DNA of 64,000 bases from Leptolyngbyaceae cyanobacterium clean351 (lineage in GTDB: Bacteria; Cyanobacteriota; Cyanobacteriia; DAIDHW01), in the NCBI GenBank assembly GCA_027451865.1, contig DAIDHW010000004.1:62001-126000 (forward strand). Direction: 5' to 3'. The notes under the pieces were generated by a model. It worked only from the letters and a program-made list of their open reading frames with translations, had not been told where the DNA came from and did not search any database. Position numbers and translations under genes: made by a program. Positions 12,384-19,422 of the stretch are shown here, one piece after another (within the stretch, counting starts at the first letter, position 1; each line of letters begins with the position of its first letter).

Positions 12384-14129
12384 TCAGTCAGCGTGCAGCA
12401 GCAGGAGGCGTTTGGGGTCTAGATACACTTGCCAGGGCAAAACTTGGGCGCGCAGGTCCTGCCACTGCCCTCGTTCAAGCTGGACTTCTAAGCGATGATC
12501 GTCGCCATTCGGGGAGTGGAGCTGCAGGTCCAAAGTCACCTGCCAAGGACTTTCCCGGACACTTTTAGGCCAGCCGGGAAAAGAATTTTGCGCCTGGGGC
12601 ACCCACCCGAGGGTCACGTCTAGGGGTCTAATGCCCACCCAACCGTAGCCCCCTCCCAACTCCAGGTCACAACCCCAGTCTAAGGCCCGTTGTCGGCCCC
12701 CCGGCAAGGGTTCGAGACGGGAGAAGTTACGGCAGCCCGTGAGCCTAGCCGCCGTCAGGGTACCCGGGTGGGCTAAGAGCTGTTCCTTGGGGGCAGCAGC
12801 GATCACCCGGCCTCGATCCATCACCAGGAGGTGGTCACAAAAGTGGTAAGCCTCCTCCAGGCTATGGGTCACAAGCAGGGTAACCCCGGCATAGGTTTTC
12901 AGCACATTGAGCAGCTCCTGCTCAAGTTGGTCCCTGAGATAACTATCTAGGGCCGAAAAGGGCTCATCTAGCAGCAGAATTTCCGGTTCACACACCAGAG
13001 CCCGGGCTAAGGCTACCCGCTGGCGTTGCCCCCCAGACAACTGGGAGGGCCTACGGTCAGCTAATCCTTCCAGATGTAGCTGCCTGAGTTGTTGGTCTAC
13101 CCGTCGCCGCTGCTCAGCGGCTGGCAACCCCTTCAACCCAAAGGCAATGTTTTGGCTAACGCTCAGATGGGGAAACAAGGCGTAGTCCTGAAACAAAAAC
13201 CCCACTTGTCGCTGGCCGCTGGTAGTATTAACGCCACCGCCGAACAATGCTCGTTCGCCTAGGTAGATATAGCCCTGGTCGGGGGTCTCTAGGCCGGCAA
13301 TGCACTTCAGGGTCATACTTTTACCCGCCCCCGAAGCCCCCAAGATCCCCACTACCCCGCTGGCTGTCCCGCTAGCCTGGAGGGTGAACGAGCCTAGCTG
13401 TTTAGTGAATTGCCAGGTCAAGCCCGGGGAGGGGCGGCGCTCCGGTAGGGGGAGCGGGGCCCTGCGAGGCCGCGGCAGCGCGGGGGGAAAACGCAGCCAG
13501 TGCACCAGCAGGATCATCCCTACGCCCATACCTAGGACTACGCTGGTCCAACGGGCAGCGGTATCTAAGTCCCCAGCACTGGCGGCAGCGAAAATGGCAA
13601 TGGGGATAGTCTCGGTCCGCCCGGGAATATCCCCCGCCAGCATCAGAGTGGCCCCAAACTCCCCCAGGGCCCGGGCAAAGGATAGGACCACTCCCGATAG
13701 GAGGCCTGGCCAGGCCAAGGGCACCATTAGCTGCCAAAACAGGGTCCAGCGGCCAGCCCCTAGGGTGAGGGCAGCCTGGACTAGGTTGGCATCTACCTGT
13801 TCAAAAGCCGCCAGAGCCGAGCGGTACATCAAGGGGAGAGACACTACCGCTGCCGTTATTACCCCGGCCTGCCAGGTGAAGATTAGGTTTAATCCCAGGT
13901 GCTGCAGGGTCCGGCCTAGGGGACTAGAACTCCCCAGAAGCAACAGCAACAAAAATCCGACTACGGTCGGGGGCAGTACTAAAGGGGCAATTAGGAGTGA
14001 ATCTACTAGTCCCCGGGTCCAACCCCGGCGCCCTAACATCCACCAGGCCGCCCCTGTCCCTAGGGCCGCAGCCAAGGGCGTACCGAGCAGGGCGCATTTG
14101 AGGGAAATAATCAGGGGAGACCAAGTCAT
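12384..14129 (-). CDS. modBC: Molybdate ABC transporter, fused permease and ATPase (ModBC)
   Basis: One 581-residue protein joins the inner-membrane permease and the ATPase of a molybdate importer. Residues 1-215 hold the ModB part with several membrane helices and the EAA-type loop (RALGEFGATLMLAG). Residues about 235-450 hold ModC with Walker A GASGAGKSMTLK, signature LSGGQRQRVALARAL, Walker B ILLLDEPFSALD and the H-loop (VTHSLEEA). A C-terminal segment resembles the molybdate/TOBE regulatory domain. ModB-ModC fusion is a known cyanobacterial arrangement. modA lies 20 bp upstream on the same strand, forming a two-gene operon. Tungstate could also be carried. Confidence 0.92.
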   Translation of the reverse strand: MTWSPLIISLKCALLGTPLAAALGTGAAWWMLGRRGWTRGLVDSLLIAPLVLPPTVVGFLLLLLLGSSSPLGRTLQHLGLNLIFTWQAGVITAAVVSLPLMYRSALAAFEQVDANLVQAALTLGAGRWTLFWQLMVPLAWPGLLSGVVLSFARALGEFGATLMLAGDIPGRTETIPIAIFAAASAGDLDTAARWTSVVLGMGVGMILLVHWLRFPPALPRPRRAPLPLPERRPSPGLTWQFTKQLGSFTLQASGTASGVVGILGASGAGKSMTLKCIAGLETPDQGYIYLGERALFGGGVNTTSGQRQVGFLFQDYALFPHLSVSQNIAFGLKGLPAAEQRRRVDQQLRQLHLEGLADRRPSQLSGGQRQRVALARALVCEPEILLLDEPFSALDSYLRDQLEQELLNVLKTYAGVTLLVTHSLEEAYHFCDHLLVMDRGRVIAAAPKEQLLAHPGTLTAARLTGCRNFSRLEPLPGGRQRALDWGCDLELGGGYGWVGIRPLDVTLGWVPQAQNSFPGWPKSVRESPWQVTLDLQLHSPNGDDHRLEVQLERGQWQDLRAQVLPWQVYLDPKRLLLLHAD

Positions 14130-14149: not shown

Positions 14150-14935
14150 CTACTTGAGGGGCAAAAGCTTAAAGCCAGCCTGGTCAAAGACCTTCCTAGC
14201 GGGGGGCTGGGTGAGAAAATCCAGAAAATCCTCAGCGGCCTGGGGATGGGAGCTAGAGTTGATCACCGCCCCCGGATAGATGATTGGCTGATGGGATTGG
14301 GGGGGAGCCACCGCCACCACCCTCACTTGGCTAGAGGTGCGAGCATCAGTCAAGTAGACAAGACCGGCATCCACATTGCCAGTTTCCACGTAACTGAGGA
14401 CCTGACGCACATCCTGACCGTAAACCAGCTTGGGCCGTAGCTGCTCGAGAAGACCGAAAAACTGCAGTACCTGCCGACCGTAGTCCCCAGCCGGCACGCT
14501 GCGGGGATCCCCCAGGGCGATCCGGTGTACACTTCCCTGGGTAAGGTCGCGAAAACTGTGAATGCTTGAGGCTGACCGAGGGGTGATGAGCACTAGGGTG
14601 TTACTGAGCAGGTCGCGGCGAGTGCCAGGCAGCAAAAGATGCTGTCGCTGCAGTAGGTCCATCTCCCTAGGGGAGGCAGCAAGGAAAATATCTACGGGGG
14701 CACCCTGGATAATCTGCTGCTCTAGGGCCCCGGAGCTACCAAAGTTATTTTGAATCTTCACCCCGGGTTTTAGGGGTTGGTAAATTCCCTCCACGGCCCC
14801 TAAAACGTCCTTGAGGCTAGCAGCAGCCGAGACGACTAGTGTCGTAGGCTCTTGGGCGGAACTAGGGTGTCCTACCGTCACCAACCCCAAAACAACCAGG
14901 GCTAGGATCAGCCATTTTCCCCAAGACTTGAGCAC
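14150..14935 (-). CDS. modA: Molybdate-binding periplasmic protein ModA
   Basis: Periplasmic receptor that delivers molybdate to ModBC. The open frame extends to 15034, but the GTG at 14935 is chosen because it has GGGAGGAG about 5 nt upstream and gives a proper signal peptide (VLKSWGKWLILALVVLGL, cleavage near SSAQE). The mature protein begins TTLVVSAAASLKDVLGAV, the usual ModA start whose serines bind the oxyanion. Other matches are NNFGSSGALEQQI, PVDIFLAAS and DAGLVYLTDA. That gives 261 residues. It diverges from the triple-repeat protein gene at 15068. Confidence 0.92.
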   Translation of the reverse strand: MLKSWGKWLILALVVLGLVTVGHPSSAQEPTTLVVSAAASLKDVLGAVEGIYQPLKPGVKIQNNFGSSGALEQQIIQGAPVDIFLAASPREMDLLQRQHLLLPGTRRDLLSNTLVLITPRSASSIHSFRDLTQGSVHRIALGDPRSVPAGDYGRQVLQFFGLLEQLRPKLVYGQDVRQVLSYVETGNVDAGLVYLTDARTSSQVRVVAVAPPQSHQPIIYPGAVINSSSHPQAAEDFLDFLTQPPARKVFDQAGFKLLPLK

Positions 14936-15067
14936 AGTTTCTCCTCCCAATTCCAGGTACATTCTAGCTGAGGGTAGTGGCAAGCTGACCCGAGTACCTG
15001 GGGATGAATCAAGGTATCTTGGCAACATAACCATAATCTCCCTCAGTCCTCAGCCAGGTCCTGCCTT

Positions 15068-16657
15068 ATGGCTAGTCCCTACCAAAGTAAGCTGCTCAGA
15101 CTGCTTTTAAGCCAATCTCGCCGCTGGCAAAACCAGGCAGCGGAAGCCTGGAATCGCGCCCGCCTAAGTCTCTACTGGGGGACTGAGATGATTCTGCGCT
15201 CAGTTGCCTGGTGGTTCCAACCTGCCCGAGTTGCTATTTCCTCTCGAGGGGTTGACCATGCCCTGGAGCGGGTGCTAGAGAGAATCAGCATTGTCCCGGA
15301 CCAGGGGGTGGTCATCAAGGCGCGCCCCTGGTGGCGCAGCCTCACCTGGAGTAACAAGCTTTCCCCGGGGGCCCGCGTCCAGGGGATCGCTTCCCTAGTA
15401 GCCGACCACCGGCTAGTTATTGTAGATACCCAGGGCCAGATTTTGGACCTCTTGACGGCCGATCAGCAGACCCAACTGCGCCGGTATCTGGAGGGAGAAT
15501 CAGCTGACCACCGGCTGAGAATTCCCCCCTTGAACTTACCCTGGGGGCGGCAAGCTTGGACCTCCCTAAATCTAGCCCTGGAGCAGGGGAAACTTCTGAT
15601 TCTCAAACCCCAGCCTGTGGACCGGGCAACGACCGCAATTTTGGCTCAAATCAAGCTCCTAGAGCTTCAGACAGTTGTGGTCACCCCAGGCTGGGCTATA
15701 CGAGCGGGGAGAGTGGCTGGCCTCGTGGCCTGGTGGGGCAGGTTAACCGGGCAAGCCCCACCCAAGTGGGCCAGTGCCCCACTCCAGGTAGCCGGCATTG
15801 CCTGCTTACTAACTGACCGGCGATTAGTGCTAATTGATCCTCACAACCAGATTCTCGATCTGCTGACCCCAACCCAGCAGGTCTGGCTCAGCCAAAGGTT
15901 AGCAAAGGAATTAGCTAGCCGTGAGGGCCGGTTTCCCTCGGTTGGGTGGGGATGGTTAACGGGAGGTCCAAGGTTAGTTCTCCCCCCCCAGGACACCCCC
16001 CTGGTGAGGACGCTAGCAAGTATTAGCCTCTCAGGTCCCCAAACGGCAGTGCTGGCAGCGCCCCCCCACCCTTGGCCCTGGTGGCAGTGGGGCTTCCTAG
16101 CCGGCCTTGGCGCCATCAAACCCCGGCAGATTACACCGCCAGCCCCAACCCGCCAAGTCCACGGCATCGCTTCCCTAGTCCTTGACCGGCGGTTGGTACT
16201 AATTGATGACCAAAATCAGATCCTGGATATCCTCACCCCAGCCCAACAGGCCCAACTTTGGCGGCGCCTAGTCTGGGAGATAGCTGACTACAGCCTCAGG
16301 TACCGGCGGTTTAGCCAGGGCAAAATCCTCAGGCTAGGACCAGCCGCCTTGCGAGTTCTAGCCCCAGCGCGCCGGGTCTATGGATTGCTCGCGGGAGGAG
16401 TGGACTCTCCGCGACTGGCAAGCTTCTCCCCACCCCTAACACCTTTGCCGAGTCCCCCCGCATCCCCCTGGGTGGTTATGGGGGCAGTTACCCCTGCCTG
16501 CACTGCGGTGGCCGAATCACCCTGGATTGAGGTATCCGCGATTCCCCTAGGCTACGTACCACATCCCCTGGCCCGGCTGCTCACTTGGATTGATCGGATT
16601 CTCGCCACCCTGGAAGCCTGGCTGGAGCGTCTGCAAGCCTGGTTTAGACGTGCCTGA
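15068..16657 (+). CDS. Triple-repeat protein of unknown function
   Basis: I do not recognise a function. The 529-residue protein carries three copies of an about 46-residue module at roughly residues 103-150, 239-286 and 362-410. Each reads like V-GIASLV-DRRLVLID--NQILDLLTP-QQ--L-RRL. Before each copy is a weaker segment (about 65-90, 173-210, 300-330) with a pattern like L--I-I---Q-VV, so the true unit may be about 130 residues. A basic N-terminal helix and tryptophan-rich stretches (WWRSLTW, PWPWWQWG) suggest membrane-surface contact. There is no signal peptide or clear transmembrane helix. The end (GYVPHPLARLLTWIDRIL) is amphipathic. It resembles, from memory, unassigned cyanobacterial proteins. 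psbI follows 63 bp downstream. Confidence 0.8.
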   Translation: MASPYQSKLLRLLLSQSRRWQNQAAEAWNRARLSLYWGTEMILRSVAWWFQPARVAISSRGVDHALERVLERISIVPDQGVVIKARPWWRSLTWSNKLSPGARVQGIASLVADHRLVIVDTQGQILDLLTADQQTQLRRYLEGESADHRLRIPPLNLPWGRQAWTSLNLALEQGKLLILKPQPVDRATTAILAQIKLLELQTVVVTPGWAIRAGRVAGLVAWWGRLTGQAPPKWASAPLQVAGIACLLTDRRLVLIDPHNQILDLLTPTQQVWLSQRLAKELASREGRFPSVGWGWLTGGPRLVLPPQDTPLVRTLASISLSGPQTAVLAAPPHPWPWWQWGFLAGLGAIKPRQITPPAPTRQVHGIASLVLDRRLVLIDDQNQILDILTPAQQAQLWRRLVWEIADYSLRYRRFSQGKILRLGPAALRVLAPARRVYGLLAGGVDSPRLASFSPPLTPLPSPPASPWVVMGAVTPACTAVAESPWIEVSAIPLGYVPHPLARLLTWIDRILATLEAWLERLQAWFRRA

Positions 16658-16720: not shown

Positions 16721-16837
16721 ATGCTCACCCTTAAGATCGCTGTTTACACCGTTGTCACCTTCTTCGTCCTGCTATTTGTGTTTGGCTTTCTCTCCAGTGA
16801 CCCTTCCCGAAATCCCAAACGGCGGGATTTGGAATAG
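16721..16837 (+). CDS. psbI: Photosystem II reaction centre protein PsbI
   Basis: A 38-residue single-helix subunit of the photosystem II core that lies next to D1 and CP43 in the thylakoid membrane. The translation begins [19 protein letters not shown] and ends [16 protein letters not shown], an essentially complete match to the family, including the conserved SSDP-RNP tail. The ATG at 16721 and the TAG at 16835-16837 define it. It follows the triple-repeat gene and precedes the LptD-like gene on the same strand; a hairpin lies 21 bp downstream. Confidence 0.96.
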
Positions 16838-16858
16838 TTAGGCCTGGTATGATGGCAT

Positions 16859-16885
16859 TTTCCCTCTCTAGCCTGGGGAGGGAAA
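16859..16885. terminator. Hairpin between psbI and the LptD-like gene
   Basis: TTTCCCTC (16859-16866) pairs perfectly with GAGGGAAA (16878-16885), an 8-bp stem with an 11-nt loop. It begins 21 bp after the psbI stop. No T-run follows on the + strand, so it may act as an mRNA 3'-end stabiliser or a weak terminator and not as a classical Rho-independent one. It ends only 9 bp before the GTG proposed for the next gene, so it could also mask that gene's translation start. Confidence 0.45.
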
Positions 16886-16894
16886 TCGCCGTGG

Positions 16895-19021
16895 GTGCAG
16901 GATATGCCTTTCTCTCCTCCTCCTCAACTCCCGCCTGTCCTCCACCTACCCTCCGTATCCGTCCCTGCCACCCCCGCAGCGCCTGCCGTCCCCTCTCTCC
17001 CCAGTTCCTCCCCGGCAGAAGTTCCCAACTCAACAGCCCCGCCCCTGTTTGGTCAAGTATTAGAGCTGACCGCTGACCACCAGGACTACGACGCTGCCCA
17101 GCACATTTTCACTGCCTATGGTCATGTGGTAATGCGGATCGGGCAGACCCTCCTACAGGCTGACCGGATCCAAGTCAACACTGAAAACCATGTGGCTGTC
17201 GCCACCGGCAACGTCTCCCTTACCCAGGGCCAGCGCCTACTGCGGGGGAACGAGATCGAGTACGACTTTGTCAAGGGAACTGGCGTGATCACTAAAGCCT
17301 GGGGGGAGGTGAACCTGCGGCCGACCCCAGCCCCCGCGGGTGCTCAAACCCTTTACCCTAGTAGCCCGGTCGGACCGGGCGAAGACCAGGTGCTGCGCAG
17401 CCAGCCCCTTGTACCCACCCAGGATAGTTCCCTGTCCTTAGTGTTTGGTTTCGGGCGCAGTCTAGCGGGCTTAAGCAATGCCGGTAGCTTTCTCCCCCCC
17501 GCCGGCGGAGTAGTCAAACACCTACGCTACGAGGCAGACCGGATTGAGTTTACCCCCGAGAGTTGGGAGGCTACCAACCTACGTCTTACTAACGATCCTT
17601 TCTCCCCCCCCGAAACTGAGCTGCGCGCTAAGCGGGCTGAGTTTAAACCCTTGTCTCCCTTTGAAGACGAGTTAATTACCCACAACCCCCGGCTCGTACT
17701 AGACCAAAAGATTGTCCTTCCCCTATACCCATCACGGTTCACCCTTGGCCGGAACCGCCACACCCCTTCTTTACCCTTTCTGATTGGCTACGACGGGCCA
17801 GAAAGGGGGGGGCTTTATTTGTACCGACCGATCACGGTGCTGGCCAACTCCCGCATCAATTGGCAGATTTCGCCGGAATTCTATATTCAGCAGGCTTTCG
17901 CCTCGGAAAACTTTCAAAAGCGCCTGGGGATAGTACCACCCGCCCCGGCCGTGGGCAATCCTATCCCCAATACAAGTGGTCTGTTTCATTGGGCTAACTA
18001 CGGGGTCCACTCCACCCTCAGCGCCACCTTTACGCCCCAGGATACCCTTTCCGGGTATCTGCTCCTGAGTGGTCTCGACCTGCAGAATGTCCAGAACAAC
18101 CTCTACGCAAGTCTTAGGCTACACCACAGCTTCGGGCCCGACCGCTTACAGTATGCTTGCAGTTCCGCCGCCTGCGGCGCAACTCGGGACCTGGGCAACT
18201 ATGCCTTTGAGGCGGAGTATAGCTATCGTAACCTCCTGTTCAATGGCTCCTTAGGTTTCCAGACCGTCCAGCAAAGCATTGGGGGAGTGTTTACCTCGCC
18301 TTTGTTTCCCATTGGCAAACCTAGCAGCAACCTACTATTCTCCTACCAGGTCGGTGCTCAGTACGTGGAGGCGGCCACCGACCGCCAAAATTTGTTGCCG
18401 CCAGGGGCCGTAAATAACCTAGTTTTCCTGGGCCGGACCCAAGCTAGCGCTTTTTTAACCTGGACCCACTCCCTGTGGTACGGCAAGGCACTACCCCTGA
18501 CCGCCACTGAGGCCCTACGGTTTAGTCCCACCCCGGTGGTGCCAAACGTCGGCCTATTTGCCACTGCCACTGGGGTTATTAGTTATTACACCAGTGGTGA
18601 CACTCAGAACTCCCTCACCGGAACCCTGGGCTTGCAAGTCCAAATAGGCCACTTTAAGCGTCTGCTGCTAGACTACACCAACCTCACCTTCAGTTATACC
18701 CAAGTCGCCTTCAGCGGTCAGTCACCCTTTTTGTTTGACCGGATCGCCGACCAACGGTACGTATACTTCTCCATCACCCAACAGATTCTCGGTCCCTTGC
18801 TCGTAGGATTTGATACGGAGATTGACCTGCCGAGCGGCAACCGTATCAGTTCCGACTACATCATCGATTTCCAACGCCGCACCTATAGTGTGATCATCCG
18901 CTACAATCCTGTTCAACAAATTGGCTCTATAAACTTGCTTATCAACGACTTCAACTGGAACGGGGGTACAACCCCTTTCTCAGGGGAGCCCACAGGTAGG
19001 GAAGGCAGGGCACCGCAATGA
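16895..19021 (+). CDS. LptD/OstA-like outer-membrane protein (DUF3769)
   Basis: Probable outer-membrane beta-barrel of the lipopolysaccharide-export type. After a proline-rich leader (residues 1-50), a LptA/OstA-like beta-jellyroll is visible (LELTADHQDYDAAQHIFTAYG, then LLQADRIQVNTENHVAVATGN and LLRGNEIEYDF). The rest, about residues 200-708, is strand-rich with alternating residues and aromatic girdles, ending VIIRYNPVQQIGSINLLIND, typical of a barrel terminus. Cyanobacterial DUF3769 proteins are regarded as LptD homologues. The start is uncertain: GTG at 16895 or ATG at 16903, and no classical signal peptide is seen with either, which is odd for an exported protein. The stop overlaps the next ATG by 4 bp. 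Confidence 0.8.
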   Translation: MQDMPFSPPPQLPPVLHLPSVSVPATPAAPAVPSLPSSSPAEVPNSTAPPLFGQVLELTADHQDYDAAQHIFTAYGHVVMRIGQTLLQADRIQVNTENHVAVATGNVSLTQGQRLLRGNEIEYDFVKGTGVITKAWGEVNLRPTPAPAGAQTLYPSSPVGPGEDQVLRSQPLVPTQDSSLSLVFGFGRSLAGLSNAGSFLPPAGGVVKHLRYEADRIEFTPESWEATNLRLTNDPFSPPETELRAKRAEFKPLSPFEDELITHNPRLVLDQKIVLPLYPSRFTLGRNRHTPSLPFLIGYDGPERGGLYLYRPITVLANSRINWQISPEFYIQQAFASENFQKRLGIVPPAPAVGNPIPNTSGLFHWANYGVHSTLSATFTPQDTLSGYLLLSGLDLQNVQNNLYASLRLHHSFGPDRLQYACSSAACGATRDLGNYAFEAEYSYRNLLFNGSLGFQTVQQSIGGVFTSPLFPIGKPSSNLLFSYQVGAQYVEAATDRQNLLPPGAVNNLVFLGRTQASAFLTWTHSLWYGKALPLTATEALRFSPTPVVPNVGLFATATGVISYYTSGDTQNSLTGTLGLQVQIGHFKRLLLDYTNLTFSYTQVAFSGQSPFLFDRIADQRYVYFSITQQILGPLLVGFDTEIDLPSGNRISSDYIIDFQRRTYSVIIRYNPVQQIGSINLLINDFNWNGGTTPFSGEPTGREGRAPQ

Positions 19022-19422
19022 CTAATCAAGGCATGGACCAAGAGTTTAGCCCCCGTCCGGGGGTGAATCTAAGTCAAATGTTAACCTACTACGCCTTCGA
19101 TCTCGGGTCGGAACCCCTAGATTCCCTGGTGCGCACTTGGACGGACAATTATCCGGCGGCCTGGGTTTACCTCGCCATCGTGGAGGCTCTGTACCAAGGC
19201 CGCTATAAAGTTATTTCTGTCAGCCAACTGCTCCAGGGCTGGCAACGGCGAGGTAAACCCCTATACAAATTCAACCGGGATTTTGAGCGCCTAGTTAGTG
19301 GCCGTATTTCTCATCCCCCAGCTTTCCTTAACCAGGTCCCCCGAGACAGCAAAATCCCCCAGTTTGAGCCCCCAGCTGCCAGTTCAGGGTTCTTGGCCAA
19401 GCTCAGGGCGATGGCTTACTAA
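19018..19422 (+). CDS. Conserved cyanobacterial protein of unknown function
   Basis: A soluble 134-residue protein with no recognised domain. Its core ([18 protein letters not shown], then [20 protein letters not shown]) matches my memory of a widespread cyanobacterial family without assigned role. The C-terminus is low in order (proline-rich) followed by a short helix. ATG at 19018 overlaps the TGA of the LptD-like gene, so the two are probably translated together, which hints at an envelope-related role. The 3' end overlaps cpcS by 20 bp on the other strand. Confidence 0.8.

Follow-up and report, generated by a model that had tools for sequence, protein, structure and literature searches.

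Architecture of the locus

The window analysed here, a 64,000-nucleotide stretch of the genome of Leptolyngbyaceae cyanobacterium clean351, carries an open reading frame (15068–16657, +) that begins with an ATG at 15068, ends with a stop codon closing at 16657 and, on the basis of the ORF call and an alignment to 17 orthologues, encodes a three-module protein of 529 amino acids. Its N-terminal conserved region (residues 1–72; 15068–15283, +) comprises a YQS box and one long predicted helix, and its start, MASPYQSK, is compatible in the alignment with the family start MxxxGxYQS. Three copies of a central motif follow: copy 1 (residues 104–147; 15377–15508, +), copy 2 (residues 241–283; 15788–15916, +) and copy 3 (residues 364–408; 16157–16291, +), which match a motif profile at 50.7, 62.3 and 69.4 bits, respectively. 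The C-terminal region (residues 483–529; 16514–16654, +) combines a conserved box with an amphipathic helix in the pattern WIE..A...GYVxHPL...LxWxDR...xLE; the family's GYVKHPLExxLEWLD box is recognizable here, with P for K and A for the following E. The gene is present in a single copy, and no paralogue was found in its own genome.

An earlier note on this DNA had placed the gene directly upstream of psbI (16721–16837, +; PF02532, 84 bits), and indeed the Met codon of psbI at 16721 lies 63 bases beyond the stop codon. The third gene of this conserved block encodes an LptD-like outer-membrane protein (DUF3769; 16895–19021, +; PF12600, 508.8 bits). A scan between the genes gave no promoter-like site, and a terminator scan gave one terminator-like site, inside the ORF, which is fewer than in shuffled sequences. 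On the opposite strand, a 581-amino-acid frame (12384–14129, −) fuses a BPD_transp_1 permease domain to an ABC ATPase domain, presumably forming a ModB–ModC-like fused transporter for molybdate, and is adjoined by a solute-binding protein gene (14150–15034). Between the DUF3769 gene and a CpeS-type lyase gene lies a small gene (19018–19422, +) without a Pfam match; 15 of the 80 named loci of the family have a related gene downstream.

Both ends of the protein are helical in prediction. The N-terminal helix is amphipathic and partly hydrophobic (hydrophobic moment 0.56), and its best 19-residue hydropathy is only 0.68, against 1.5–1.6 in some relatives, so it is no typical membrane span. The earlier note was right to call the C-terminal end amphipathic (hydrophobic moment 0.55). 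No signal peptide is visible by eye in the window protein. Confidence is low overall in the two AlphaFold2 models, both of whole proteins (mean pLDDT 69.3 and 62.2); the model of the window protein contains one helix at residues 8–72, mostly above pLDDT 80, and another at residues 500–528. Good local confidence is found in the N-terminal helix, in the motif, which is predicted to fold as strand-strand-strand-helix (copy 1 in the window model), and in the C-terminal helix.

A clear likeness to a known fold or enzyme family, which the earlier note had said would count against its reading, did not emerge. On the window protein, all Pfam and NCBIfam models stay below their cut-offs, and scans of 49 family members returned scattered weak matches to family models only. 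No PDB sequence matches the window protein, and none confidently matches the family profile. With the low-confidence models as queries, Foldseek found nothing below E 0.001, and a second aligner, VIA, gave best Z scores of 4.4 and 5.0, a level that its own notes call common. Tudor/SH3-like, Rad50/PtuA and FERM chains were listed by these fold searches at chance-level scores only. In the open-licence literature, we found papers on the neighbours and none on a protein of the family.

Among the weak matches are those to the Spy/CpxP (LTXXQ, PF07813) periplasmic chaperones, of which the window protein might accordingly be a relative: the CpxP model scores 25.1 bits and the LTXXQ Pfam model 14.2 bits, and the motif profile picks up a Spy chain at E 0.005. 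These scores fall short of the curated thresholds, which are 24.3 bits in Pfam and 160 in NCBIfam, and the likeness is confined to about 23 residues around a shared ILTPEQ-type stretch. Spy and CpxP form an all-helical cradle, whereas the models of the window protein, at low overall confidence, place strands rather than helices before the ILTPEQ box; a signal peptide is likewise not apparent by eye. This kinship is largely refuted, and we give it almost no credence.

Copy number across a cyanobacterial family

The motif profile was built from 16 single-motif relatives, with the window protein and L020 left out, and it detects exactly three domains in the window protein. When the window protein was shuffled, 43 of 1,000 sequences gave any match, the best at 4.5 bits, and the pairwise scores between the copies were reached by none of 2,000 shuffles per pair. 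The claim of three copies of one motif, made in the earlier note, is thus confirmed by an independent profile. The copies share the central motif IxGIAxxLxxRxLVLVxxxNQILDILTPxQQ and are 43–45 residues long, not quite the 46 that had been claimed; they begin at intervals of 137 and 123 residues, in keeping with the spacing of 120–137 given there. The weaker conserved segment said to precede each copy stands in part: shuffling supports it between copies 1 and 3 (p = 0.0075) and between copies 1 and 2 (p = 0.048), but not between copies 2 and 3 (p = 0.25). With its positions 86–239, the family profile aligns to copy 3 and the segment that precedes it.

Three tandem units, one of two arrangements envisaged earlier, are borne out by the profile and the shuffles. 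The other, a continuous solenoid whose three modules pack into one binding surface, would suit the near-regular spacing of the copies. Most relatives, however, have a single copy, so the module must be able to fold alone, and the stretches between modules are mostly modelled at pLDDT below 50, which is inconclusive, with the copies unevenly covered in the modelling alignment. We consider such a solenoid improbable.

The window protein as query matched 24 of 39 genomes in an initial search, and a profile search matched 242 of 338 genomes of the class Cyanobacteriia; the remaining 96 lack a family match, so the function of the family is dispensable. Of 146 genomes drawn from the phylum, 55 had a match, every one in this same photosynthetic class, and no match listed from the draw lay outside it. 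Among phages, plasmids and viruses, no relative could be confirmed. By sequence comparison, the window protein is a divergent orthologue in an uncharacterised family that is confined to Cyanobacteriia in these searches.

The motif profile matched 195 of the 338 class genomes; in our reading of its table, 171 have one copy, 23 have two and the window's genome alone has three. Synechococcus elongatus PCC 7942 has a single-copy orthologue before psbI, with a length of 269 amino acids in G030, a genome of S. elongatus size. Far from being peculiar to this protein, which the earlier note would have taken as evidence against itself, the motif is conserved well beyond it. Two-motif members fall in genus group g28, to which G029 belongs, and in several f15 genomes; G029, where one of the two copies is weak, and the f15 genomes G072, G148 and G303 are the four in which both copies were confirmed to share one frame. 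In G262 two copies with equal scores occupy separate short frames and may reflect an assembly duplication. Two other loci depart from a single frame. A contig labelled Chloroflexaceae bacterium (L105; JAAUTE010000108.1) carries a family gene spread over three frames and is probably a misbinned cyanobacterial contig; in L002 (G007:C20), the N-terminal part and the remainder occupy different frames, either because the gene is split or through a draft error.

Whole proteins were compared in several alignments. One (A1) holds 17 loci: of the 19 found besides the window's in the initial search, the incomplete L002 and L006 were dropped. From the 80 named loci, nine were dropped for a split frame or for want of an ATG near the YxS box, and of the 71 that remain, 65 entered A4 and 48 entered A5; A6 holds 34 loci and the three window copies. 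Relatives follow a common order of N-terminal YQS box and long helix, motif, LPPVR..LMAWVQTGPVA box, long variable linker and C-terminal box (WIE..A...GYVKHPLE..LEWLD...WLE). Across 66 aligned rows, eleven positions are invariant (M1, Y5 and S7; G495, Y496, V497, H499, P500, L501, D509 and E516), eight of them in the C-terminal box. Alignments and models agree that the ends are conserved and that the middles are disordered and variable in length. Single-motif orthologues, such as those of Leptolyngbya sp. DLM2.Bin15 (L128) and Scytolyngbya (L070), share with the window protein the YQS helix, the motif, the GYVKHPLE helix and, in part of the family, the psbI neighbour. They differ in having one motif instead of three and in possessing the LPPVR..LMAWVQTGPVA box and a longer disordered linker, both only faint in the window protein, which keeps mere remnants (GRQAWTSLNLALEQGKLLIL and similar) of the full LPPVRxFxxLMAWVQTGPVAIAxNLF pattern.

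The window copies are 52–64% identical to one another and 41–48% identical to the median relative, while their best single outside matches reach 52–62%. As the copies differ from one another by 36–48% in sequence, an assembly artefact is unlikely. These comparisons support an origin of the three copies by internal duplication of a module that relatives have once or twice, and we read the central module as having been duplicated twice within the gene in the window's lineage. A quick tree groups the window copies with one copy from S. elongatus at a support of 0.125, which is too weak for the duplications to be dated. The two-motif members have the same module internally duplicated, and their two copies do not group with those of the window in this weakly supported tree; the duplications were probably separate events.

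Linkage to psbI and the photosystem II question

In 109 comparable genomes, a non-random sample in which both genes are among the matches listed, strongest first, psbI follows the family gene immediately and in the same orientation in 48; 7 more have it at a distance of up to 8 kb, 18 have it far off along the same contig, and in the other 36 the two genes sit on different contigs. In 37 further genomes the family gene is listed and psbI is not among the matches listed. Among the 80 named loci, with neighbouring genes called by longest frames, psbI is directly downstream in 18, DUF3769 is nearby in 30 and a GH38 alpha-mannosidase gene is divergently upstream in 43. The linkage to psbI is therefore conserved beyond the window. 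The linkage between psbI and DUF3769 is an old one that recurs among widely differing cyanobacteria, whether or not the family gene is there, and the two are close together with no family gene found beside them in, for example, G013 and G001. The order psbI then DUF3769 is seen in the window (16721–19021) and in L131, L133, L134, L135, L136, L137, L139, L140, L143, L144, L145 and L150. In one of these loci (L135, genome G012), the GH38 mannosidase gene and psbI adjoin divergently with no family gene between them, an arrangement that looks like a clean loss of the family gene. Co-occurrence is uninformative about the GH38 mannosidase as a partner, as this enzyme is present in 291 of the 338 genomes.

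The earlier note had proposed a thylakoid-surface role for the protein, with photosystem II (PSII) assembly in mind, and a PSII factor in the same operon as psbI would account for the adjacency, which recurs in at least 11 families in our reading of the matches listed. All matches listed come from the photosynthetic class, and there is no family match in G013, whose genome is of Gloeobacter size; Gloeobacter is a genus without thylakoids. Yet psbI is also joined to DUF3769 where the family gene is missing, so proximity to psbI may be inherited gene order, and the f2 genomes listed have psbI and no family match.

The spheroid bodies of Rhopalodia gibberula (L077) and Epithemia turgida (L081) bear on this proposal, since an accessory protein of PSII would be lost together with it. 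Neither spheroid body can photosynthesise, according to PMC5638926. The D1/D2 family has no match in the R. gibberula spheroid-body genome and is represented by fragments only, some with stops, in that of E. turgida; the free-living SU2 and PCC 7105 genomes yielded full-length D1/D2, and a Microcystis draft (L112) yielded short fragments only, mostly at contig ends. psbI is intact in the former spheroid body and has an in-frame stop in the latter. Both spheroid bodies have an intact family gene (551 and 530 amino acids) and an intact DUF3769 gene.

Between the two spheroid bodies, dN/dS of the family gene is 0.51 overall; the motif region has 0.19 and the linker 0.57, and the ratio means nothing for the N-terminal 75 codons, where dS is only 0.02. 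For five neighbouring gene families that are also retained, the values are 0.05–0.28, which indicates that constraint on the family gene is relaxed but present. Neutral simulations left none of 500 sequences stop-free at each of three divergence levels. Elsewhere in the family, two pairs are under constraint, with dN/dS of 0.13 and 0.17; a Hormoscilla pair that has diverged very little gave 0.83.

An intact family gene despite the loss of D1/D2 argues against a dedicated role in PSII. Of the two cases, only that of E. turgida is strong evidence: in PMC5638926, the R. gibberula spheroid body is described as retaining most chlorophyll-synthesis genes intact, and retention of the family gene alongside other useless photosynthesis genes weighs little. 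The family protein is probably not dedicated to PSII; the proposed thylakoid-surface or PSII-assembly role is weakened, and we now regard it as unlikely. A cell-division role, suggested by a coiled-coil gene upstream in the spheroid bodies, found no supporting family match.

A possible adaptor at the membrane

The neighbours also suggest an envelope protein that would work with the LptD-like protein encoded two genes downstream, for example in lipopolysaccharide or envelope glycan traffic. DUF3769 is described as the cyanobacterial LptD in PMC4365693, it and GH38 recur around the family gene in the frequencies given above, and both spheroid bodies keep the family gene and DUF3769 intact even where psbI is broken. 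Against this, many genomes that lack the family gene do have DUF3769 and GH38, the window protein has no signal peptide recognizable by eye, and gene linkage does not equal physical interaction. We hold this partnership to be as doubtful as a PSII factor.

We tentatively favour a cytoplasm-facing peripheral-membrane adaptor, not dedicated to PSII, whose module was triplicated in the window's lineage. This is suggested by the ends that the family shares, the N-terminal helix and the GYVKHPLE..LEWLD helix, which would hold the protein to a membrane or to a membrane protein; association with a membrane surface is plausible from the amphipathicity of both. The small strand-strand-strand-helix domain between them may bind a partner, and the long variable linkers would give this binding module reach. 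Duplicated twice inside the gene, the central module would provide three binding modules in the window protein. A likelier workplace than PSII would be the cell envelope or the inner membrane in general. A broader version of this adaptor reading is possible, though we lean on it less: the family would be an undescribed class of adaptors, its module copied one, two or three times by lineage, that serves the envelope and not photosynthesis and was retained by organelle-like N2-fixing endosymbionts after the loss of PSII.

Judged from its sequence, the window gene belongs to a widespread, uncharacterised cyanobacterial family, of which it is a variant with three modules, and its architecture is real and unusual. 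The family occurs in almost three-quarters of the class genomes searched, yet we found no family model, solved structure or open-licence paper for it. Adjacency to psbI invites a PSII label, against which the endosymbiont evidence warns, directing attention instead to the envelope and inner membrane. The three-copy form may serve as a natural experiment on the effect of module number.
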